The position numbers and the translations under genes were made by a program. The notes beneath the pieces were generated by a model, which searched no databases, was not told the origin of the DNA, and saw only the letters and a program-made list of their open reading frames with translations. 60,779 nt of DNA from Clostridiales bacterium (GTDB taxonomy: Bacteria > Bacillota > Clostridia > Christensenellales > Borkfalkiaceae), in the NCBI GenBank assembly GCA_015055545.1, contig SVHY01000005.1, forward strand, positions 1 to 60,779, in the 5' to 3' direction. This document shows, piece by piece, positions 308 through 57,760 of the stretch; position 1 is the first letter of the stretch; each line of letters starts with the position of its first letter.

Positions 308-3247
308 TTAGTTCCAGCTAAGCACACCGTCCGTAACCGTCCAATATTTGCTATCAAACGTATTCAGGTCTTCAGCATTCGCTGTCGCGTCTTTTTGCAT
401 ATCACCTATCGATGCATAACGCTTAACTCCTGCAATCGTGATCGTTGTTTCGGTTTGGTTGCTTGCATCAGCTCTCGTTGCCTCGTTTGCCTTCGAGCCC
501 GCCAACATAGCGTTGCTGATTACGTAAACGTTCTTGAAGTTTGCATACGCACCTTCTGTGCTGTCTGCCACGCACATCAACGAACCACCATTGTAATTAG
601 CGTTCGACATATAGTTATACTCGTCAATTTTAATCACACAGTTTTCCATTACCGTGCTTCCGTCAATACTGCTCGCAAGGCCTGCACCACGGAGTGCGCT
701 TCCTGAACCTGTCATAAGCGTGCCAGATGCGACTGTAACCGAGATCTGCATAGTCGGAATATGTACGTACACGTTTTTCAACGTTGCCTTTTCTATTACG
801 CAAGCTAAAGCATACGTATCTCGCGCATGGTAGACCGCATTTGCAGTAGCAGTATCTCTGGTGAACACCAAATTCGTGAAGCCAACGTTTTGAACCGTAC
901 CGCCGACAATCACGCCAAACAGACCTCTACGATTCAACGAAAGGTTGGAAATGGTATGTCCATTACCTTCGAATACGCCCGTCAAGCCAACGTTGCTATG
1001 CCCGCTAACGCTCAGGTTTTCCCACGAAATCGACGCCTCGTTAGTCGTTACCGAATGTACGTATCCCGCACAATCAATATCCTTCGTCAAGACGTAATAA
1101 CCGTCAAATGCATTCGCACGGCCAACCATACCCGTATTTACCGCATATGCCGAAGCTCCCAAATTGAATACTGCTAAATCAGATGCCTCGTCGATAACCT
1201 TCGTTGCAGGAATTACGGAAACGTTATAAACCTGTTCGCTGCCCTGCAGGGCAATCGTCATCTGTACGGGGGTACCATCCTTATTCACGGGTACGCCTGC
1301 CACTTTTCCGTTTGTTACAGTGTATTCTGTTTCAGCAACTTTTACGCTTTCGATAACCGCTGTAGCAGAGCCGAACATTTTCGCCATATCTTCCGCACCA
1401 AACTTACCTTCCGACATATCCAAATAGTACGTGCCTTGTACGTTAATAGTATTAGTACGTACATTAAAGTAAGGAATCTTTCCTTCTTCAACTGTCCAGA
1501 AACCATTATCGAACGAAGAATAATCATTGCCTGCCTTTTGCATATCACCTACCGATGCATAACGCTTAGCGCCTGCAATCGTAATCGTCGCCCCGGTTTG
1601 GTTTCCTGCATCAGCTCTCGTTGCCTCGTTTGCCTTAGAGCCTGCAAGCATAGCGTTACTGATTACGTAAACGTCCTTGAAGTTTGCATACGCGCCTTCC
1701 GCGCTATCTGCCACGCGCATCAACGAACCGCCGTTGTAGCTTGCATTGGTCATATAGTTGTATTCGTCAATCTGAATCACGCAATTTTCCATTACCGTAC
1801 TTCCGTCAATACTGTCCGCAAGCCCTGCGCCACGGACTGCACTTCCCGCGCCCGTCGTGCCCGATTCACCATTCAATACATACGAACTCTGCATCGTCGG
1901 GATGTGTACGTACACGTTTTTCAACGTCGCACCCTCAATCACACAAGCCAATGTGTAGACGTTTTGACCGTTATAGCCACCACCGTTTGTAATATCGCCT
2001 CTGGTAAACTGCACGTTTTTGAATGCTACGTTTTGCACCGTGCCGCCAGCGATTGCGCCGAATAAGCCTCTACGTACCAGGGTGAGGTTAGAAATCGTGT
2101 ATCCGTTGCCTTCAAATACACCTGTAAGACCTGCGCCTTCCTCTATATGCCCCGTCATGGAGAAAGATTCATTGGCGTCGCTCGGTTTCGATACTGAATG
2201 TATGTAGCCCGTACAGTCAATATTTTTGGTTAATACGTAATAGCCGTCGAAGGCATTTGCATTCTTCCAAGTCGTCGAATAGATATTTGCCTCATCACCC
2301 AAATAAAATACCGCTAAGTCAGATGCCTCGTCGATTACCTTCGTAGCTTTTACGAAAGATGCGCGATATACGTTTGCATTTTCGTCGAATAAATTCAAGC
2401 TATGTTCGCCGTCCGCAATACCGTCTACACTTACCGTTGCTTCGTTATTTGTAACTACTACGTTGCCTATGAGTTTTGCCCCAACGTATGCCACGTACGT
2501 TTGATCGCCAAGCTCGTTTAATGCTAATGCAACGTTTCCATTGTCCGTTTCAGGGTTATATACGCCAGCACGCGTCGTTTGCGTTTCCGCGACACCTACG
2601 TATTCAGTCAACAGCGTACTTGCATCACCGTCTATTTGCGCCGCATTCGCAACCGCGCGCATACTTCTTGCCGTATCTTCCGCTTTTGCGTATATGACTA
2701 CGGGTTCGCCACTCGTCGGTGTGATTTCCACGTACGAACGTGCAACGAGTTCCGTTGCATAAATCTCGCGAAGTTCCGCATCATTAAGGTTCGTCCAGTC
2801 TTCTACCGTGTCGTCTTTGTAGAGCACCGAACCGTAATATTTACCATCTTCCAAAGCACCTTTCGTATCGTTGCAAAGCAACGTTTCCGCATTTTCCACG
2901 GTCATATCCGAAATGGTAACCTCTTCCGCTCTATTCGGCAAGTTTACCGCCGTGATAAGCGTACGGTATTCCACGCTCGCGCCTGCGTACGTCGTTTCAA
3001 TGTAGTTTACAAATTCGTCCGTTACGTTCGTTTCCCAACGGATACCTGCTTCGTTGTTTACCTTACGTACCGACGCACCCGTGCTCATATAAAAACCTTC
3101 GCTTGCGATTCTCGTCGTGCTATCCACCGTGATATCCGCCGATACTTTTACGTTGTCGCCGTCGATTTGCATTACGCCAACCGACACCGCCATTGCCACG
3201 CCAAGTGCTAACGTCAGCAATACTTTACTTTTCTTCGTCGCTTTCAT
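308..3247 (-). CDS. Giant secreted protein with two near-identical GLUG-like repeat blocks
   Basis: 979 residues with a Sec signal peptide at about residues 1-30 (KKSKVLLTLALGVAMAVSVG). Residues 45-210 form a beta-rich module (ASVRKVNNEAGIRWETNV ... YATELVARSYVEI) known from Clostridia surface proteins. Two long blocks then start at about residues 299 and 684, both opening with ATKVIDEASDLAVF. Each carries FDGYYVLTK-IDC-GYIHSV, TGVFEGNGYTISNL and RGLFG-I-GGTVQNV, which is the GLUG-type right-handed beta-helix pattern. The two blocks are almost the same over roughly 290 residues, a recent internal duplication. The 1180-aa neighbour shares the motif. No LPXTG or SLH anchor was found. Role inferred: cell-surface or extracellular glycan or substrate contact for this sugar locus. 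The start overlaps the stop of a 46-aa gene (TAATG). Confidence 0.8.
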   Translation of the reverse strand: MKATKKSKVLLTLALGVAMAVSVGVMQIDGDNVKVSADITVDSTTRIASEGFYMSTGASVRKVNNEAGIRWETNVTDEFVNYIETTYAGASVEYRTLITAVNLPNRAEEVTISDMTVENAETLLCNDTKGALEDGKYYGSVLYKDDTVEDWTNLNDAELREIYATELVARSYVEITPTSGEPVVIYAKAEDTARSMRAVANAAQIDGDASTLLTEYVGVAETQTTRAGVYNPETDNGNVALALNELGDQTYVAYVGAKLIGNVVVTNNEATVSVDGIADGEHSLNLFDENANVYRASFVKATKVIDEASDLAVFYLGDEANIYSTTWKNANAFDGYYVLTKNIDCTGYIHSVSKPSDANESFSMTGHIEEGAGLTGVFEGNGYTISNLTLVRRGLFGAIAGGTVQNVAFKNVQFTRGDITNGGGYNGQNVYTLACVIEGATLKNVYVHIPTMQSSYVLNGESGTTGAGSAVRGAGLADSIDGSTVMENCVIQIDEYNYMTNASYNGGSLMRVADSAEGAYANFKDVYVISNAMLAGSKANEATRADAGNQTGATITIAGAKRYASVGDMQKAGNDYSSFDNGFWTVEEGKIPYFNVRTNTINVQGTYYLDMSEGKFGAEDMAKMFGSATAVIESVKVAETEYTVTNGKVAGVPVNKDGTPVQMTIALQGSEQVYNVSVIPATKVIDEASDLAVFNLGASAYAVNTGMVGRANAFDGYYVLTKDIDCAGYVHSVTTNEASISWENLSVSGHSNVGLTGVFEGNGHTISNLSLNRRGLFGVIVGGTVQNVGFTNLVFTRDTATANAVYHARDTYALACVIEKATLKNVYVHIPTMQISVTVASGTLMTGSGSALRGAGLASSIDGSTVMENCVIKIDEYNYMSNANYNGGSLMCVADSTEGAYANFKNVYVISNAMLAGSKANEATRADASNQTETTITIAGVKRYASIGDMQKDATANAEDLNTFDSKYWTVTDGVLSWN

Positions 3248-3498: not shown

Positions 3499-6400
3499 TC
3501 ATTTCTTCCAAACAGGTATTTGTCCTTCCGCTACCGTCCAGTAATCGTTTTCAAACGCGCTATAATCGTTGTTCGCGTCTTGCATATCCTTTGCCGTTGC
3601 ATAACGGTACATGCCCGTATAACGGGAAATTCTTTCGCCCGTTATCGTCGTTTCGGTAATATTCGTATTCGACGCACCGCCAAGCTGTTCGTATACGTAC
3701 GCACGACGCACTTCACGCCATTGTGCCAACGTAAGCCCCGTTTCGTTCGTTTCATTCTCCCCAAGTGCTATGGTAGAATTATTTTTATATACTGCGCTTG
3801 GATTCCACGAAGATATCATTGCGTTGGAAATGACGTATACGTTGCTAAACGAAACACTTGACCCCAAAGGATAATTCGTATTATATTTTGCAGAGCTTTC
3901 GTAGGCGATTAAGCCGTACGATCTTGCGTATTGCTTTTGCGTGCCTTCGATATCGTATTGGAAGATACAATTTTCCATCGTCGTTCTTCCGTACGCCATC
4001 GTTACCAAAAGCGATCTATTTCCGCGCGATTGAACACTGTTTGTCGTGCCGTTTCCGCCGATCAGTTCATTTGCTTGGATATATACGTTTTCAAGCGTTC
4101 CGTTTACCATTTGTTCTGCCAACAACGAAATATTTTCCTCGTTCGTATCGCCTTTAAGCGTTACGTTGGTAAACGCTACGTTTTTCACCGTTCCGCCGTA
4201 AATAACGCCAAACAAGCCGTGATGACCTACCGTCAAGTTGGAAATCGTATAGCCGTTTCCGTCGAATATGCCTTTCAATCCGCCGTTGTGGGCTTTTGCG
4301 CCTGCAAGCGACAACGATTTGAGATTGTCGCGTACCGCGCCCGTTGCGACTTGGTGCGTATAACCGCTTGCATCGATATCCTTAGCTAATACGTAATATC
4401 CATCAAACGACGTTGCGCTTTCTATATACGAATCCGTGCTCATCGTTGCTTGCGTAATTTTAAAAATTCGCGCGATATCGTCTATATCGTCAAGGTACTC
4501 CGTAACAGGAATCACCGTTGCTTTATAACCTAACGCTTCGCCTTGAAGTTTAAAGATAACGGACAATTTATCACCGTGTTTATCGATAGGGAAACCGTTA
4601 ATAACGTTATTCTCTCCCACGGTTAACGCGTGCGTTCCGATTTTTGCCGACTGAATAATGACGTCTGCGCGTCCAAATATCGACGTCAATTGCGCATCGG
4701 TAAATTCGCCTACTTGCGTGTCAAAAAGGTATTCTCCGTCCACTTCACGGGCAGGTTCTAAACCCGTCGATTCAAAACAAGGCAAGTACCCGTCTAAAAC
4801 AACCCAGTATTTCGAGAAGTGCGAGAAATCGTGTCCAGCCTCCAACATTTCTTCTTGCGTTGCATAACGGTAAACACCGCTCGCTTGCTTACAAAGATGG
4901 CTTAAAAACGTTCTACCGTTGTACTGTTCAAAATCATCGCCTTCACTATACCAAGGCATATTGTTGTCGTGGTTAGGTCTACCAACGATTTCGTAAATAC
5001 GGTTTTCTATTTCTTCATTCGTTGCGCCTGATTTTATATCGTTTGTCGCTAAGAGTACGTTAGAATTAACCGTTTTATAAATTTTCGCCAAGTTGGAAGA
5101 AATAAGTACGCTGTTCGTAACGACGTATACGTTTTCAAATACCAACGACGAACCCGTAGCGTTTTTCATACTTCCTTCATAAGCAAATAACCCGTATGAA
5201 TAACAATATTTCACCGTCGTACTTGCGATTTGATAAGTGAAGAAACTATCTTTAACGCTCGTCTTTCCAAACGCGCTTACCGCAAGTAACGCGCGCGAGC
5301 CACGCGCATCATTATCCGTACGCACGTCCTCTAAAGACTCTGCGCCGTAAATGGTGTTGGCTGTGATATATACGTCTTTAAACGTACCGTTCAACGATTG
5401 TTCAGCGAAAAGTGCTTTGTTTTCCTGATACGTGCTTCCTCTTAAAGTAACGTTGCTAAAACCGACGTTTTTCACCGTCCCACCGTAGATAAGTCCAAAC
5501 AAACCGTGGTCTTCCACCGTAAGGTCGAAAATCGTGTAGCCTCTACCGTCAAACGTACCCGTCAAGCCACCACCTTTTATCTCCAACGGACTTTCCGCAC
5601 TGATTTTATTCAGCTTGGAGCGGACACGATTGCCGTCTTTATAAGCCACGCTCGTTTCCGTTTCGTTTTCAGCAATCGTATTATCGGTTACCCTATGTAT
5701 ATAACCGCTTGCATCAATATTGCCAGCAAGCACGTAATAACCGCCGAACGTCGTCGCACTTTTTACCCTTTCACGCGTGCCGTCCATTTCCGTTTCAATT
5801 TCCGTTATTCGGAAGATTTCTTCTAAATCAGCCACCGACCTAATAATCCGTGAATATGCCACGATGGGAACGACGTAACCGTACGATTCCGTATACACCG
5901 TAATCGTGCTTTTGTTTGCCTCGTCTTGCACGGGCGTTACGCCAAATACTTTATTATCAAGTATTTCTAACGTTTTACCATTCTCTTCCGCACCTGCAAG
6001 CGTAACGTTTTCGCCAAAAATCGTTTCAATGGGTAATTCGCCTATCTCCGTTTCAAACTCAAGCGTTGCACCGGCGTATTCCGCAATCGAAGGCAATACG
6101 GTTACCTTAAAAGATTTTTCGTACGTTTCGTTTTGACTGTCCGTGCAGGAAATCAAAATCTCCGCTACGCCTTTTTTGCCCATAGAACGTATGACTTTTT
6201 CCGTCGCGTCGTATTCTACAACGTCTTCGCCTGCAACGATTTCCACTTGCGCGTTTAACGCTTCCCCGTTTTCAAACGCCTGCACGGAAAAAGCCGTTTC
6301 CGTAACGTAGTCGTTTCCGCAAAATTCGGGTATAGCGTACAGCGTAAATTCATTTTGCGAGCCATCGTTAATATACAAAGCGACGTTCGTAGATACTTCC

Positions 6401-7041
6401 ACTTCAAACGTTTGCGTTAACATTACACTTTGCGCACCAGCCCACTGCGCAACGGCTTTCATAGTAGTTTTTCCAACCTTTTCGGGTTGAAAAACATTCC
6501 CTTCCATCCTACCTATCGTAGGGTCGGAAAGCGTATACGTTATCGTATCCGCGTCAAATTTTTTACCGTTAAAGCTTACGTACGGCGTAAATTCAAACGC
6601 TTCTAGCTGGGCAACTTTTATCTTTCCGTCTTTTATGCAGTCAAATGTAAGTACGGGAATGCGTTCGCCTATTCCTACGCTGATTTGCGCCGTCGCTACT
6701 TCTTCGCCGTATTTTACCGTAACGACCGCCGTTCCTACGCGCTTTGCCGTGCATTTACCTTGGTCGTCTACGCTAAGCACGTCCGCATTAGAAGATTCAA
6801 AACTAAGCGTGTCGTTGCGTGCAAAATCGTACGCAACGTTTAAATACTCCTCATCTCCTATCAGTAATTGCAAGTCAGCGTTTTTAACAGTTAATTTCGT
6901 TTCCTCCGCAGGTTGCATAACGGAAACGTCCGTATCCAAATCGTCGCTTGTTTCCTCGCCGTTTTTACAACAAACGCCACCAACTACAAGCAATAACGAA
7001 GCAAACGCTAAAAAGAGATGTTTTATAGTTTTCTTTTTCAT
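3499..7041 (-). CDS. Giant exported protein: Big_2-like Ig domain plus two GLUG-like blocks
   Basis: 1180 residues. The N terminus (LFLAFASLLLVVGGVCCK) is a signal peptide with Cys24/Cys25 and a weak lipobox, so a surface lipoprotein is possible. Residues about 45-125 match a bacterial Ig-like (Big_2) domain (NADVLSVDDQGKCTAKRVGT, then AVVTVKYG). Further Ig-like strands run to about 390. Two long blocks begin near residues 398 and 855, each with GYYVLA--IDASGY-H-V, GL-G-FDG-GYTI and HGLFG-IYGGTVKNV, the same GLUG/beta-helix motif as in the 979-aa product. The start at 7041 follows GGAGAG. It lies between the DUF4838 gene and the 46-aa gene in one direction, so it is likely co-expressed and involved in surface handling of the locus substrate (inferred). 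Confidence 0.78.
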   Translation of the reverse strand: MKKKTIKHLFLAFASLLLVVGGVCCKNGEETSDDLDTDVSVMQPAEETKLTVKNADLQLLIGDEEYLNVAYDFARNDTLSFESSNADVLSVDDQGKCTAKRVGTAVVTVKYGEEVATAQISVGIGERIPVLTFDCIKDGKIKVAQLEAFEFTPYVSFNGKKFDADTITYTLSDPTIGRMEGNVFQPEKVGKTTMKAVAQWAGAQSVMLTQTFEVEVSTNVALYINDGSQNEFTLYAIPEFCGNDYVTETAFSVQAFENGEALNAQVEIVAGEDVVEYDATEKVIRSMGKKGVAEILISCTDSQNETYEKSFKVTVLPSIAEYAGATLEFETEIGELPIETIFGENVTLAGAEENGKTLEILDNKVFGVTPVQDEANKSTITVYTESYGYVVPIVAYSRIIRSVADLEEIFRITEIETEMDGTRERVKSATTFGGYYVLAGNIDASGYIHRVTDNTIAENETETSVAYKDGNRVRSKLNKISAESPLEIKGGGLTGTFDGRGYTIFDLTVEDHGLFGLIYGGTVKNVGFSNVTLRGSTYQENKALFAEQSLNGTFKDVYITANTIYGAESLEDVRTDNDARGSRALLAVSAFGKTSVKDSFFTYQIASTTVKYCYSYGLFAYEGSMKNATGSSLVFENVYVVTNSVLISSNLAKIYKTVNSNVLLATNDIKSGATNEEIENRIYEIVGRPNHDNNMPWYSEGDDFEQYNGRTFLSHLCKQASGVYRYATQEEMLEAGHDFSHFSKYWVVLDGYLPCFESTGLEPAREVDGEYLFDTQVGEFTDAQLTSIFGRADVIIQSAKIGTHALTVGENNVINGFPIDKHGDKLSVIFKLQGEALGYKATVIPVTEYLDDIDDIARIFKITQATMSTDSYIESATSFDGYYVLAKDIDASGYTHQVATGAVRDNLKSLSLAGAKAHNGGLKGIFDGNGYTISNLTVGHHGLFGVIYGGTVKNVAFTNVTLKGDTNEENISLLAEQMVNGTLENVYIQANELIGGNGTTNSVQSRGNRSLLVTMAYGRTTMENCIFQYDIEGTQKQYARSYGLIAYESSAKYNTNYPLGSSVSFSNVYVISNAMISSWNPSAVYKNNSTIALGENETNETGLTLAQWREVRRAYVYEQLGGASNTNITETTITGERISRYTGMYRYATAKDMQDANNDYSAFENDYWTVAEGQIPVWKK

Positions 7042-21095: not shown

Positions 21096-21373
21096 TCAAA
21101 TTCTCGTCTTTAAAAACGAAAAGGCTTTTTCAATATCCGCTTGCGGATTATCGCCACATTCCCTTTCAATCGTCAAGAACCCGTCAAACCCGATTTCTTT
21201 GAGCGCTTTTAAGTAGTTTACCCAGTCCACTTCGCCCTCGCCAAGCGGTACTTCTTTAAACCCTTCGCAAGCGTTTAATGCATCCACACCGCCTTTCGTG
21301 TCCTGCAAAAACGCAAGCAACGTCTTCGCCTTTTCAGGACCCGTTTCTATCGCAAGCGTTACCCCCTTACTTT
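21096..21373 (-). pseudogene. C-terminal remnant of a sugar-phosphate isomerase/epimerase
   Basis: About 92 residues from GVTLAIETGPEKAKTLL through GEGEVDWVNYLKALKEIGF and GFLTIERECG match the last third of xylose-isomerase-like TIM-barrel proteins (AP endonuclease family 2), usually 270-290 residues. The upstream two-thirds are missing: right before GVTLA the sequence turns into the 40-nt hairpin and the structured ncRNA. The open frame continues upstream into that RNA region only by chance. The remnant sits close to the sugar locus and probably belonged to it. Loss of the N terminus looks like a deletion or a junction created at the ncRNA unit. Confidence 0.75.
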
Positions 21374-21397
21374 CCTTATTTCTCCTAAAAACAAAAG

Positions 21398-21437
21398 AAC
21401 GCCAATTAGAAACCGTATATCGTTTCCCAGCGGCGTT
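21398..21437 (-). repeat. Conserved 40-nt hairpin, copy 1
   Basis: Outer arms AACGCC/GGCGTT enclose an inner GGAAAC/GTTTCT stem, followed on the minus strand by a CTTTTGTTTTT tract. 38 of 40 bases equal copy 2 at 57455-57494. In both places it lies just downstream of the ncRNA terminator. It is probably a second terminator, but its conservation exceeds that of the RNA before it. Confidence 0.75.
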
Positions 21438-21462: not shown

Positions 21463-21675
21463 AAAAAAGAATGCCGCCTCTTTCGAGACAACATCCGCAG
21501 AAAATATCATCTCAAAAGCTGCGACACTTCAAAACACATTTACACTTCATCGCCGTGAAAGGGATTTGTATAAAGCGAGATAGATATAATCCACCAAGAT
21601 TATATCCCTAACCACAACAAACTATAAAATTGAAGTGTAAAAATTCTCCTTGATTAAAGTGTTTTGAAAAGTCGC
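21463..21675 (-). ncRNA. Structured ncRNA, copy 1 (about 213 nt)
   Basis: A perfect promoter fires at G21675. The RNA starts GCGAC and folds as a rod. P1 pairs 21675-21659 with 21521-21537 (17 positions, one mismatch). A 5' bulge carries AAGGAG (21646-21651). P2 pairs 21631-21640 with 21540-21549 (10 bp). A distal hairpin GATATAATC/GATTATATC (21583-21606) has a UGGU-containing loop. A terminator (10-bp stem, GAAA loop, U-rich tract) ends it at about 21463. No open frame fits inside. The paralogue at 57516-57725 keeps the same stems with different bases, which is covariation. Length and rod shape recall 6S RNA, but the strongly one-sided bulge is unusual; identity unresolved. Confidence 0.8.
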
Positions 21676-21681
21676 ATAATC

Positions 21682-21710
21682 ATTATATGGCATTTTGAAA
21701 ATAATGTCAA
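21682..21710 (-). promoter_or_regulatory. Promoter of ncRNA copy 1
   Basis: TTGACA (21705-21710), a 17-base spacer and TATAAT (21682-21687): full consensus. The expected start lies 7 bases downstream, at the first base of stem P1. Confidence 0.88.
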
Positions 21711-22284: not shown

Positions 22285-22393
22285 TTTATTAGAAAATTTA
22301 TTAGAAAAAATAAAAAACACGATTTTTTATTAGAAAAAAATTTTGTCTATTTTTGTTCTAATAAAACCGCAAAAAATTTTATTAGAACAAAAA
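22285..22393. repeat. AT-rich block: five TTTATTAGAA repeats and a 17-bp inverted repeat
   Basis: TTTATTAGAAAA occurs in tandem at 22285-22296 and 22297-22308, and again at 22326-22337. The motif then appears twice more as a perfect 17-bp inverted repeat, 22350-22366 and 22377-22393, with a 10-base gap. This fills most of the 320-base gap between the zinc-ribbon gene and tRNA-Arg. I see no gene in it. It could be a binding array, a transcription barrier or a decayed element. Confidence 0.7.
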
Positions 22394-22424
22394 TAAGTTC
22401 AAAGTAAAAGTATCAAAAATAAGC

Positions 22425-39946: not shown

Positions 39947-42184
39947 TTACAACGGACGGATTTTACCGTGTTTCTCGTCGCCGCGCTCGCCCATGTCCCG
40001 TACGTTCCAACGCCTGTTCCACGTGGCGGGTATAAACAACGGGTTCTTTACGTAGATTACGAACTCCTTTTTACACAGGAAAAATACGCTGTGCGATACG
40101 TGCTGTACGCTGGGCGGGATACGAATCTCGTCTAACGCGTCGCATAAGGCAAACGCAAACGTTTCTAACGCCTTTAAACCGCTTGGCAATACCACGCTCG
40201 TAAGCCCTTTACAGCGGTGAAAGGCAGAATGTCCTATCTTCTTCACGCCTACGGGAATTTCAATTTCCTTTAAACGGAAACAACCGCAAAAACAGGAATC
40301 GGATATCTCTTCAAGCGACGTAGAAAGTCGCACCGTTTCCAACTTCCAGCACCCGAAAAAGGCGTTATTCCCCACCGCTTTCACGCTGTCGGGCATGAAA
40401 AGCGAGGTCATCGTTTTATTCCCCTCAAACGCGCGCGGCGCAATTTCCGTAATAAACGCGGGAATTGCCACGTGCTCTGCGTTGCCTTCGTATTTTTGCA
40501 GCGTTTCGCCCTCTACGATAAAGCCCTGCTCCCGTACCTGCGCGCTTGCCTCCGCTAAAAATTTTGCCCGCTCTTCCTGCGCTTTTCTCTCTTCCGCTTC
40601 GCGCGCTAAACGCTCCTCTTCTTGGCGTTTTAACAGTTCTTCTTTTTCTTTCCGCTCCTGCTCTTGACGGATACGTTCTTGCTCTTTTTTGCGGAACTCT
40701 TCCGATTGTTCCCGCCGAAGTTCTTCCAAGCGCGCCCGCTCTTCCGCCATACGCGCGCGCGTTTCTTCCGTTTGCCGCCGCTGTTCTTCCGCACGCAGTC
40801 TAAACTCTTCTTCGTAGCGGCGGCGTTGCTCTGCTAAAGCGTTCATTTCCGCCTCACGAGCCAAACGCTCTTCTTCCGCACGCTTTTTCGCCTGTATTTC
40901 TTCTTGGCGTTTTAAGTCCTCTTGCGCTTTGCGCTCTTCTTCATACCGCTGACGCTCTTTTTCCAAGCTCCGCGCCTCTTCTATACGTCGACGGCGTTCT
41001 TCTTCTAACTGCTTTTTCTCGTTTTCCAAGCGTTCGCGCTCCTGCGCCATACGCGCAAGCTCTTCTTCCATTTTCAAGCGCGTTTCTTCTTCCATGCGCC
41101 GACGTTCTTCGTCCAACCGCTTGCGCTCTTGTTCAAGTTTCCGTTCTTCTTCCACGCGCCGCGCCTGTTCTTCTTCCATAGCCTTTTGCTTGGCTTCTTC
41201 TTCCGCGCGTTTGCGCTCCTGATCCGCGCGTAACCGTTCTTCCCGCAACCGCTTTTGCTCTTCTTCGCGCGCTTGCCGTTCCTTGATAAACGCTTGCTTT
41301 TCTTCTTCTAACCTCGCGCGCTCTTCCGCCATTTTCGCCCGTTCCGCCTCCATTTGTTGGCGGCGTTCGTCCTCTTGGCGTTTTTGCTCCTCTTCAAGCT
41401 TTTTGCGTTCTTCTTCCCGCTGCGCGTTTTCCTTTTCAGCAATCGCTTTCGCCCCCGATAAATACGGGTATTGTACGGCGTAGTCCGTGCGTTCGCGCTC
41501 CGTTTTGCAAAGTCCGAATAACTGCCGAAGCGCGTTTTCCGCCGCCGCGTTGGGTCGAGTGCCACCGCGTAAGCTCGCACGAAGTTTGAGTTCCCAAAGC
41601 GTTTTATCGTCAAAATTTTCGTCCAAGCCCGCGTCGATATACCCGTTCGCCTCGTCGTATTGCCCGCTTGCAAGTAGCATTTGAATATCCGCGATACGCT
41701 TTGCCTTTGCTTGCTGCTTTTCCGCCGTCGAGCGCGCGAACTCGTCCGTTTTCATGGTCTTTTGCTTGCGGTCAATCTCCATAACGTCAGCGGAATAAAA
41801 ACGGTTTTGCTCCCGCGAACTACGCGCAAGTATCATTAAATATTCAGGGTGCTGCATAATGGGCGTAGAAAAGGCTCTATGGCATACGGGCGTTTTTCTG
41901 CCCTGCGCGCCGTCCGCATATTCCACCCCGTATAAGCAAAGCAAAAGCCCCCAACGCGCTTCGCTTTCGTCGGGATATTCCGCTTTCAGTTTCGTATACA
42001 GCCGTTCAGCCTCGTCAAAACGCTTTTGCAAACGAGTATCGTTCGCGTCGTTGAAAAGCTGCACTTTGCGTTCGTCTATAAACGACGGTAACGTTTGCCC
42101 CATACCGCAAAATTGACAAAAAACGACCTTTGCCCCTTGCAACGCCGCTAAATCGTTTCCGCATGCTTTACATTTATAGTTCAT
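39947..42184 (-). CDS. Zinc ribbon - coiled coil - BspA-like leucine-rich protein
   Basis: 745 residues in three parts. A zinc ribbon (C5-x2-C8 and C23-x2-C26, with YKCKACGNDL and FCQFCGMGQ) begins it. TPR-like helices to about 240 follow (FDEAERLYTKLKAEYPDESE). A very long charged coiled coil spans about 245-575 and is almost pure Glu/Arg/Lys/Gln. The C-terminal 150 residues are BspA/LRR_5-type repeats (IPAFITEIAPRAFEGNKTMT, VKAVGNNAFFGCWKLE, LKEIEIPVGVKKIGHSAFHR). There is no signal peptide, so a cytoplasmic scaffold is more likely than a surface adhesin. The mix of domains is unusual. It has its own promoter (TTGACT-18-TATAAT, 42215-42244). Confidence 0.82.
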   Translation of the reverse strand: MNYKCKACGNDLAALQGAKVVFCQFCGMGQTLPSFIDERKVQLFNDANDTRLQKRFDEAERLYTKLKAEYPDESEARWGLLLCLYGVEYADGAQGRKTPVCHRAFSTPIMQHPEYLMILARSSREQNRFYSADVMEIDRKQKTMKTDEFARSTAEKQQAKAKRIADIQMLLASGQYDEANGYIDAGLDENFDDKTLWELKLRASLRGGTRPNAAAENALRQLFGLCKTERERTDYAVQYPYLSGAKAIAEKENAQREEERKKLEEEQKRQEDERRQQMEAERAKMAEERARLEEEKQAFIKERQAREEEQKRLREERLRADQERKRAEEEAKQKAMEEEQARRVEEERKLEQERKRLDEERRRMEEETRLKMEEELARMAQERERLENEKKQLEEERRRRIEEARSLEKERQRYEEERKAQEDLKRQEEIQAKKRAEEERLAREAEMNALAEQRRRYEEEFRLRAEEQRRQTEETRARMAEERARLEELRREQSEEFRKKEQERIRQEQERKEKEELLKRQEEERLAREAEERKAQEERAKFLAEASAQVREQGFIVEGETLQKYEGNAEHVAIPAFITEIAPRAFEGNKTMTSLFMPDSVKAVGNNAFFGCWKLETVRLSTSLEEISDSCFCGCFRLKEIEIPVGVKKIGHSAFHRCKGLTSVVLPSGLKALETFAFALCDALDEIRIPPSVQHVSHSVFFLCKKEFVIYVKNPLFIPATWNRRWNVRDMGERGDEKHGKIRPL

Positions 42185-49146: not shown

Positions 49147-49347
49147 TGTTTTACCTCCTTTAAGCGTTTCCGCCTGACGATAAAAAAATTCCTTACGCCG
49201 CACGGCATAAGGACTCATTGTTTCTTTCTAAAACGTTATTTCCTTAAACCTCAACGAGCGGTTTCCCATCATGCTTTACAAGCACTCGTTATCTACGGCT
49301 TTGATTTTTTACTGTCTTATTATATCATCTTCGTCAAAGGCAGTCAA
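49147..49347 (-). promoter_or_regulatory. rplJL promoter and L10 leader with attenuator
   Basis: TTGACT (49342-49347), a 17-base spacer and TATAAT (49319-49324). The leader has the L10-leader-like arms CCGTAGATAACGAGTGCTTG and AAACCGCTCGTTGAGG, then a stem 49190-49213 (UCCUUAUGCCG/CGGCGUAAGGA) with a U7 tract. That is an attenuator by which L10-L12 limits its own synthesis. Confidence 0.75.
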
Positions 49348-56856: not shown

Positions 56857-57432
56857 CTATTCTCCGTCGTCCAAACAAAGATTAACGATTATCGTTTTCT
56901 TACCGTTTCTCTTTTTTTGGCAAGCATAATCAAACGCAAGTTTCGTACCGCTTTTGGGCTGGTATTCGCTTGCATTTCCTTTCAACCCTTTATTTTTCGG
57001 CGGTTGATAATACGGATTATAATAAAAAACGCAATACTCACTTGCATTGATCATCGCTTGATTTCTTTCCACGTACGCCTCTCTGCCCGCCGCATTGATA
57101 CGTTCGGATTGTTGCATACCGTCGTAATCTTTCAATCGCACGTCCTTTTTCAAAATCGCGCTCCAACTCTTTTGAAGCTTTGCTTTTTCTTCTTTTTTAA
57201 CGGCGTATTCGCTACGGCAAGCAAACATAATACGCTTAATAGCAGGATACTTGTTTTGCATTTTCGTCACGCGTTCGTGGCAAAGCGAATTAAATGCGCT
57301 GCGGCTACCGAATAGAAAGGTTTTTACGCCCTTTTCCACGATAAGCCGCTCCAATAATTCGTCTATCCGTTTGATTAAATCTTCCGTTATTTCTATTTTT
57401 CTATGCCCTATAAAACAACACTTCTTTTCCAT
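56857..57432 (-). CDS. SLOG-fold DUF1273-like protein
   Basis: 191 residues. Reads CCFIGHRKIEITEDLIKRID, then FGSRSAFNSLCHERVTKMQN, RIMFACRSEYAVKK and PKSGTKLAFDYACQKKRNGK, the SLOG (Rossmann-like, nucleotide-ligand-binding) pattern near the YpsA/DUF1273 group. The SGTKLAFDYA motif is the ligand pocket. Start ATG 57432, with GGGGG ahead. The structured ncRNA copy 2 ends a short way upstream in the same direction. Stop codon TAG. No partner effector is visible next to it. Confidence 0.85.
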   Translation of the reverse strand: MEKKCCFIGHRKIEITEDLIKRIDELLERLIVEKGVKTFLFGSRSAFNSLCHERVTKMQNKYPAIKRIMFACRSEYAVKKEEKAKLQKSWSAILKKDVRLKDYDGMQQSERINAAGREAYVERNQAMINASEYCVFYYNPYYQPPKNKGLKGNASEYQPKSGTKLAFDYACQKKRNGKKTIIVNLCLDDGE

Positions 57433-57454: not shown

Positions 57455-57494
57455 AACGCCGATGAGAAACCGTATATCGTTTCCCAGCGGCGTT
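57455..57494 (-). repeat. Conserved 40-nt hairpin, copy 2
   Basis: Arms AACGCC/GGCGTT with inner GGAAAC/GTTTCT, followed by TTTTGTGATTTT. It differs from copy 1 at two of 40 positions. Lies between ncRNA copy 2 and the SLOG gene. Confidence 0.75.
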
Positions 57495-57515: not shown

Positions 57516-57725
57516 AAAAAAAATGCCGCTCCCCTTACAAGAAGCGACACCCATAGTATATACCTTCTCGTAAGTTGCTACACTCTATTTTCGTTCAACC
57601 ATCACACTTGAAATGGATGTTTTAAACGCGATTAGATATAATACTACCAGAGTATTATATCCATTTCAAGTATTATTCATTTTTGACGGTTGAAAAAACT
57701 CCTTGGCTTAAAAATAGAATGTAGC
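57516..57725 (-). ncRNA. Structured ncRNA, copy 2 (about 210 nt)
   Basis: Same plan as copy 1. P1 pairs 57725-57711 with 57577-57591 (15 bp, one wobble). AAGGAG (57699-57704) sits in the 5' bulge. P2 pairs 57684-57693 with 57595-57604 (10 bp). P3 pairs 57659-57671 with 57606-57618 (13 bp), overlapping a GATATAATAC/GTATTATATC hairpin with a UGGU loop. The terminator is a 9-bp stem (57524-57549) with U8. The arms share little sequence with copy 1 yet pair in both, which is covariation. It lies upstream of the SLOG gene but has its own terminator. Confidence 0.82.
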
Positions 57726-57731
57726 ATACTC

Positions 57732-57760
57732 ATTATACGACATTTTAAAAGGAAAGTCAA
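57732..57760 (-). promoter_or_regulatory. Promoter of ncRNA copy 2
   Basis: TTGACT (57755-57760), a 17-base spacer and TATAAT (57732-57737). The start would be G57725, the first base of P1. Confidence 0.85.

Follow-up and report, generated by a model that had tools for sequence, protein, structure and literature searches.

A family of Clostridia leader RNAs with mutually exclusive 3′ hairpins and a predicted loop–loop contact, consistent with transcription attenuation in cis

Two structured RNAs lie on the minus strand of the window, a 60,779-nucleotide stretch of DNA from a Clostridiales bacterium, and the locus raises the question of whether they act together as a regulatory pair or each control a neighbouring gene. 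An earlier note had described the stretch at 57516..57725 as the second copy of a non-coding RNA, with one fold common to both copies and paired-base changes in stems P1 and P2. Its coordinates and both lengths were exact: copy 57.5k comprises 210 nt (57516..57725, running from 57725 to 57516) and copy 21.5k comprises 213 nt (21463..21675, running from 21675 to 21463). When the copies were aligned, the changes in P1 and P2 were recovered, with seven double changes, seven identical pairs and one pair lost in copy 21.5k for P1, and four double changes and seven identical pairs for P2. The same pair-by-pair comparison gave two double changes, three single changes and six identical pairs for an antiterminator hairpin, and one double, four single and five identical for a terminator. 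Each copy, folded with a few flanking bases, was more stable than its dinucleotide shuffles (z=−7.2 for 57.5k and −6.9 for 21.5k), with none of 200 shuffles as good. The minus strand, the promoter, the terminator and an alternative second 3′ hairpin are additions to the original description.

All parts of copy 57.5k were located on the minus strand. A sigma-A promoter (TTGACT-17-TATAAT, 57732..57760) with 11 of 12 consensus matches precedes a rod domain (57577..57725) that is closed by P1 (57725–57711 with 57591–57577), a stem with compensatory changes both against copy 21.5k and across the family. Within the rod, P2 (57694–57684 with 57604–57594) has compensatory changes relative to copy 21.5k, and the P4 tip hairpin (57635..57662) carries a GGUAG loop that is conserved in the family alignment of 100 members. 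The tip-loop strand GUAGUAU (57641..57647) is complementary over 7 bp to the strand AUACUAU (57553..57559), which lies in the loop of the predicted antiterminator hairpin (57534..57574; 11 bp outer stem; −16.5 kcal/mol). The antiterminator, partner-specific across the family, is mutually exclusive with an intrinsic terminator (57521..57552; −16.3 kcal/mol). A second GC-rich hairpin with a T-rich tail (57455..57494, by eye) lies between the RNA and a gene of the YpsA/SLOG family (56857..57432; 191 aa; Pfam PF06908, E 9.6e-7, 29.4 bits against a cut-off of 27.7), which is the likely target of this copy.

The claim that this is a conserved structured RNA was borne out by wider alignments of 18 and of 100 members. 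For a MAFFT alignment of 18 relatives, with a structure picked by eye and from the RNAalifold prediction for that alignment, 91.9 % of cells were paired and 20 of 41 pairs had changed on both sides. There were 86 double-changed cells compared with 28.8 in shuffles, which ignore relatedness, and pairing fell to 38–54 % when partners were slid. The larger alignment, whose 100 members were fitted to the model and which hence flatters the structure, had 95.5 % of cells paired, 36 of 41 pairs double-changed and 907 double-changed cells against 256.6 in shuffles that again ignore relatedness. Along the rod, P1 is followed by P2, which an internal loop can replace, and then by P3 and P4; the P4 loop reads GGUAG or differs little from it, and a large asymmetric loop lies 3′ of P4. 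Members are about 152–230 nt long and vary in rod length. A folded sensor domain with covariation, as expected of a riboswitch or cis attenuator, was thus found. A promoter-like match of at least 10/12 was present just upstream of 102 of 116 members, compared with 19 of 580 mononucleotide-shuffled upstream stretches; the 116 were the units of the genus search after removal of the cut-off copies L011 and L012, reverse-strand echoes and about 20 weak rows. Translation of a short peptide after an AAGGAG bulge, noticed by eye in some class-1 members, was considered and is unlikely, since some members lack AAGGAG or lack an ATG. In class 2 the P1 sequence appeared by eye to be repeated in the terminator arms.

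Downstream of P1, a stretch is able to pair with the 5′ arm and loop of the terminator; the antiterminator formed in this way draws on bases that the terminator needs, so only one of the two can form. Predicted antiterminator energy among the 100 members was −16.7 kcal/mol with their own partners and −11.6 kcal/mol with swapped partners (sd 0.29, 20 permutations); for 32 further members, mostly more distant (alignment A7), it was −17.2 and −10.5 kcal/mol (sd 0.52), respectively. The predicted energies of antiterminator and terminator were less than 4 kcal/mol apart in 77 of the 100 and 24 of the 32 members, and such similar energies mean that a small input can decide between them. Sequence and predicted energy therefore indicate mutually exclusive structures of the kind found in the expression platform of a riboswitch or cis attenuator.

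The P4 loop and the strand after P4 are complementary to the antiterminator loop region, by 7 bp in copy 57.5k and by only 5 bp in copy 21.5k (21497..21594, minus strand; GUGGA at 21594–21590 with UCUGC at 21501–21497). For the latter copy the longer-window loop score picked a different pairing, which counts against a kissing model. Best contiguous loop pairing over the 100 members scored 13.34, compared with 11.56 (sd 0.15, maximum of 200 permutations 11.96) when partners were permuted within two rough classes with relatedness ignored. For a longer tip stretch, permutations that likewise ignored relatedness gave 12.7 (sd 0.21, maximum of 100 13.2) against an observed 14.7 for the 100 members, and 12.2 (sd 0.45, maximum 13.6) against 16.0 for the 32. 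A reversed-tip control scored 11.8 for the 32 members and 12.99 for the 100, the latter exceeding the permuted mean a little and falling not much short of 14.7. This indicates that low complexity explains part of the raw loop-pairing score.

Loop pairing was also scored from anchors chosen regardless of pairing, which could be placed in 123 of 132 members (nine had no anchor), at least six of the 123 being visibly mis-anchored. Over seven positions, 86.9 % of cells were paired, compared with 79.2 % in shuffles that ignore relatedness (maximum of 500, 81.9 %) and 44–62 % when slid, and there were 76 double-change cells against 37.9 (maximum 57). The outermost position accounted for 44 of these 76 cells, and the count of pair types, 20, fell within the shuffled range (maximum 21). 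For the six inner positions, the proportion paired was 89.4 % against 85.1 % (maximum of 500, 86.9 %), with 32 double-change cells against 9.9 (maximum 25). All seven pairs were formed in 68 members, six in 21, five in 22 and four or fewer in 12, some of the last because the anchor was misplaced. Examples of the loop pairs are GUAGGAU/AUUCUAC, GUAGAAGUG/CAUUUUUAC, GCAGAA/UUCUGC, AUAGGA/UUCUAU and GUAGUAU/AUACUAU. On these comparisons of sequences, the kissing contact is in all likelihood real.

Position relative to genes was assessed for 147 members, of which 145 had 200 nt of sequence downstream and 142 had 200 nt upstream. A same-strand ORF with a ribosome-site-like motif began within 200 nt downstream in 108 of 145, and a divergent ORF lay upstream in 22 of 142, compared with 732 of 3000 random positions. 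Most members thus have the position of a 5′ leader, as a riboswitch or cis attenuator would; no ORF was detected for 37 of the 145, and by eye many of these were followed by a gene without a detectable ribosome site or by a short peptide, or were inner members of a tandem array. The proteins encoded downstream (106 of the 108 were analysed; relatives are non-independent, so these are counts and not rates) comprised 36 of BspA-type LRR_5, 11 YpsA/SLOG, six with the Listeria-Bacteroides repeat, five collagen-like and four MBG_3; zinc ribbons were among the other matches. Inspection by eye showed that a protein sharing an 'LRxYGR' type stretch recurs downstream of seven members (L024, L026, L039, L056, L060, L097 and L098); that of L024, the one tested singly, had no Pfam match.

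A similar association was present in the genome of the window, where the covariance model found seven clear copies (E<1e-16) and a further match without significance. The training set of the model had included all of the seven but C22:13282. All five copies beyond the window (C15:32736, C45:14115, C22:30797, C22:13282 and C43:18933) lie on the same strand about 170–520 bases upstream of an LRR_5 (BspA-type) match. When the two lists were compared, many other LRR_5 frames of this genome had no RNA copy, and nor did its other two YpsA matches. One BspA-type LRR_5 gene without a detected RNA copy is in the window (39947–42184, minus strand).

The earlier note had read the two copies as a regulatory pair with separate conditions or targets. 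This was not upheld, given the seven clear copies in the genome and the occurrence of tandem arrays elsewhere; in the genus, the number of matches per matching genome ranged from 1 to 11. The location of the copies and their 3′ anatomy point instead to cis control of the neighbouring gene. A DNA search gave matches in 20 of 61 genomes including that of the window (E up to 0.01, a few of the matches being weak). Within the genus, covariance model R1, built from an alignment (A2) of 18 relatives with the degenerate copy L029 left out, matched 44 of 57 genomes. Model R2, built from an alignment (A6) of 100 members from 94 sources, had matches in 55 of the 297 genomes searched in the order and in 26 of the 391 in the class, among them members of families that lie outside the order; all three counts include the window's own genome. 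In a phylum sample of 398 genomes, some of the same class, R2 matched the own genome only and none of the 397 others, which suggests that chance matches are rare; the order, class and phylum counts are lower bounds because stricter filters were used and few candidates were scored per genome. Exact-pattern matches among named genomes were on 19 contigs of metagenome-assembled Clostridia, 13 of which were labelled as roe deer, goat or sheep gut.

A phage origin was considered and set aside: copy 57.5k had no match in the phage collection, and searches with exact patterns, which miss variants, found one viral contig (L201) for class 1 and none for class 2. In PHROGs, three of 10 downstream proteins gave a match at E≤0.01; these included a sigma factor.

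Comparison with known systems was made at the level of both sequence and working. Cobalamin riboswitches have a junction fold, and T-box RNAs make a choice between terminator and antiterminator in Gram-positive leaders. The family shares the latter choice with T-box RNAs, differing in its target genes and in the lack of an Rfam match; from cobalamin riboswitches it differs in its single rod, its BspA-type and SLOG targets, its promoter for each unit and its tandem arrays. No Rfam 15 family over either copy reached half of its gathering score (E up to 10), and at gathering thresholds only tRNAs were found at 20 other member loci; the cobalamin and T-box models specifically matched neither copy (E up to 10) nor any of these 20 loci (gathering). 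The closest likeness in working is to the activating corrinoid (cobalamin) riboswitch of the A. halodurans cobT type. In the model given for it in PMC10653944, kissing is the ON state, and the kissing loop stabilises a stem that cannot coexist with the terminator. There a loop of the 5′ (aptamer) domain kisses a loop of the expression platform (PMC10653944), an arrangement that covariation would suggest for the present family. The predicted contact is a likeness of working to this riboswitch and confers no membership, and the family is not filed as cobalamin, T-box or 6S RNA. Candidate structured RNAs from the human microbiome (PMC8040213) are the same general kind of prediction; the terms BspA, leucine-rich, lipoprotein, antitermination and pseudoknot are all absent from the main text of that paper, and overlap with a numbered candidate in its supplement is possible. 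No description of such an RNA was found among the titles and abstract starts listed by searches of open-licence literature, at most 20 hits for each. Although the kind of RNA is known, the leader family is apparently new, and both its cassette-like arrangement and its regulon are unusual.

Taken together, sequence comparison supports the rod, the pair of alternative 3′ hairpins, the loop complementarity, the promoter and the position before genes, and the family is very probably a cis attenuator. A fuller reading, which we consider reasonably likely, is that of riboswitch-like leaders acting by transcription attenuation in cis, in which the kissing loop stabilises the antiterminator. RNA polymerase would start at the strong sigma-A promoter and make the long rod (P1, P2 or internal loop, P3 and P4) before the 3′ segment. 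The nascent segment after the rod would then fold as the antiterminator or, after synthesis of its final bases, as the terminator. With the rod bent at the large asymmetric loop between P3 and P4, the P4 tip loop could kiss the antiterminator loop through about 5–10 bp and hold the antiterminator in place, permitting read-through into the gene (ON), while the terminator would form if the tip did not dock (OFF). Docking may be controlled by a signal, whether a small molecule, a protein or an RNA. On balance, kissing would correspond to the ON state, a choice favoured by members such as L023, in which the pairing strand is in the open antiterminator loop. Several observations count against this reading, among them that some copies have no obvious downstream gene (for example L010, L030, L032, L061 and copy 21.5k), that every unit, including those in tandem, has its own promoter and terminator as a stand-alone small RNA would, and that the variable rod length has to be absorbed by a rigid docking geometry.

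The sign of the loop contact bears on the first alternative. Loop pairing overlaps the inner antiterminator stem in many members, and 54 % (100 members) and 47 % (32 members) of the loop-pairing nucleotides were unpaired in the minimum free energy structure of the antiterminator, so that loop pairing could weaken rather than support this hairpin. The tip loop would then pull the antiterminator loop region apart and promote the terminator (OFF), as would fit complementarity of 9–13 nt through the P4 3′ strand in many members, which overlaps the inner stem. We regard this as unlikely, though by no means negligible, as L023-like members keep the pairing strand entirely within the open antiterminator loop, where the two structures can form together. 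The nature of the signal separates two further readings. Direct sensing of a small ligand by the leader is a candidate that we put forward tentatively. It is somewhat more doubtful that a protein, a tRNA or other RNA, or temperature drives the attenuator, with the conserved rod as the docking site of the partner. The targets, mostly surface and accessory genes with no common metabolite, suggest no ligand and so favour such a driver, while the combination of two hairpins similar in energy and a kissing contact is reminiscent of a metabolite riboswitch.

A trans-acting small RNA with paralogues, the reading behind the proposed regulatory pair, would account for the separate promoter and terminator of each unit, for the orphan copies without an obvious downstream gene and for the tandem arrays. 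It is improbable in view of the strong bias towards positions just upstream of a same-strand gene and of a conserved antiterminator that has no evident use in a plain small RNA; tandem arrays and orphan copies nevertheless leave room for a possible second role in trans. The rod and its bulge had initially brought 6S RNA to mind, an RNA of about 200 nt that is transcribed from a promoter of its own, folds as a long bulged rod and binds RNA polymerase. The general shape, the length, the promoter and the presence of two copies in the window agree with a 6S-type RNA, whereas the 3′ switch hairpins and the position before genes do not, neither copy matched RF00013 at E up to 10, and another locus of the same genome scored 49.2 bits with RF00013; this explanation is very hard to credit. 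That separate locus (L001, G000:C6:6725-6906) has promoter-like and terminator-like sequence by eye and is a candidate 6S RNA, an assignment that is unsure because cmscan at gathering listed nothing for it.

With riboswitch-like attenuation in cis as the preferred reading, the family might, still tentatively, represent a new class of riboswitch in the class Clostridia. Its rod would fold back so that the tip kisses the antiterminator, and it would be carried as a portable and often tandem promoter–switch–terminator cassette, placing BspA-type and SLOG genes under the control of a signalling molecule. A large orphan class of leader RNAs in which sensor and switch both covary would offer those who study riboswitches a ready target for ligand discovery, and the family would be a lead to how uncultured gut Clostridia choose the surface proteins that they display. 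Through the kissing-loop contact, compensatory mutants in a laboratory reporter strain would put the mechanism to a direct test.

Tandem arrays of complete promoter–RNA–terminator units included one of three units (L039, G027:C15) and five of two units (L050, L057, L020/L029, L176 and L179). One copy (L014, G023:C30) looked decayed by eye, with a damaged P1 and no terminator seen. At five orphan members (L010, L030, L032, L061 and L201) a terminator-like hairpin was followed by an apparently convergent gene (by eye), leaving no obvious cis target.

Copy 21.5k appears from its sequence to be an orphan that has lost its gene. On the minus strand it has a sigma-A promoter (TTGACA-17-TATAAT, 21682..21710) with 12 of 12 consensus matches, a predicted antiterminator hairpin (21480..21518; −16.9 kcal/mol) and an intrinsic terminator (21469..21496; −13.6 kcal/mol), followed by a second GC-rich hairpin with a T-rich tail (21398..21437, by eye). 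The second hairpins after the two window copies are 85 % identical over 55 nt. Beyond the hairpin lies an apparent remnant of the start of a YpsA-type gene (21366..21392, minus strand), which looks by eye like the sequence that precedes the YpsA-type gene in L019. The remnant leads into neither an intact start nor an intact gene, and 3′ of the decayed start is a fragment of a xylose-isomerase-like TIM-barrel protein. Second GC-rich hairpins with T-rich tails were also noticed after L015, L016, L019, L023 and L072, and in several copies before YpsA-type genes they lie between the RNA and the ribosome site. Their arms differ between copies and yet look complementary by eye, like a tandem second terminator.

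Other features of the window were noted in passing. A long AT-rich hairpin (TATTTTTGTTCTAATAAAA and its complement) lies at 22346–22397 near a tRNA-Arg, and a ribosomal protein L10 leader (RF00557, 48.9 bits) is present on the minus strand at 49174–49316. Two minus-strand genes (308–3247 and 3499–7041) encode large proteins with a Peptidase_M26_N match, and each contains long direct repeats.
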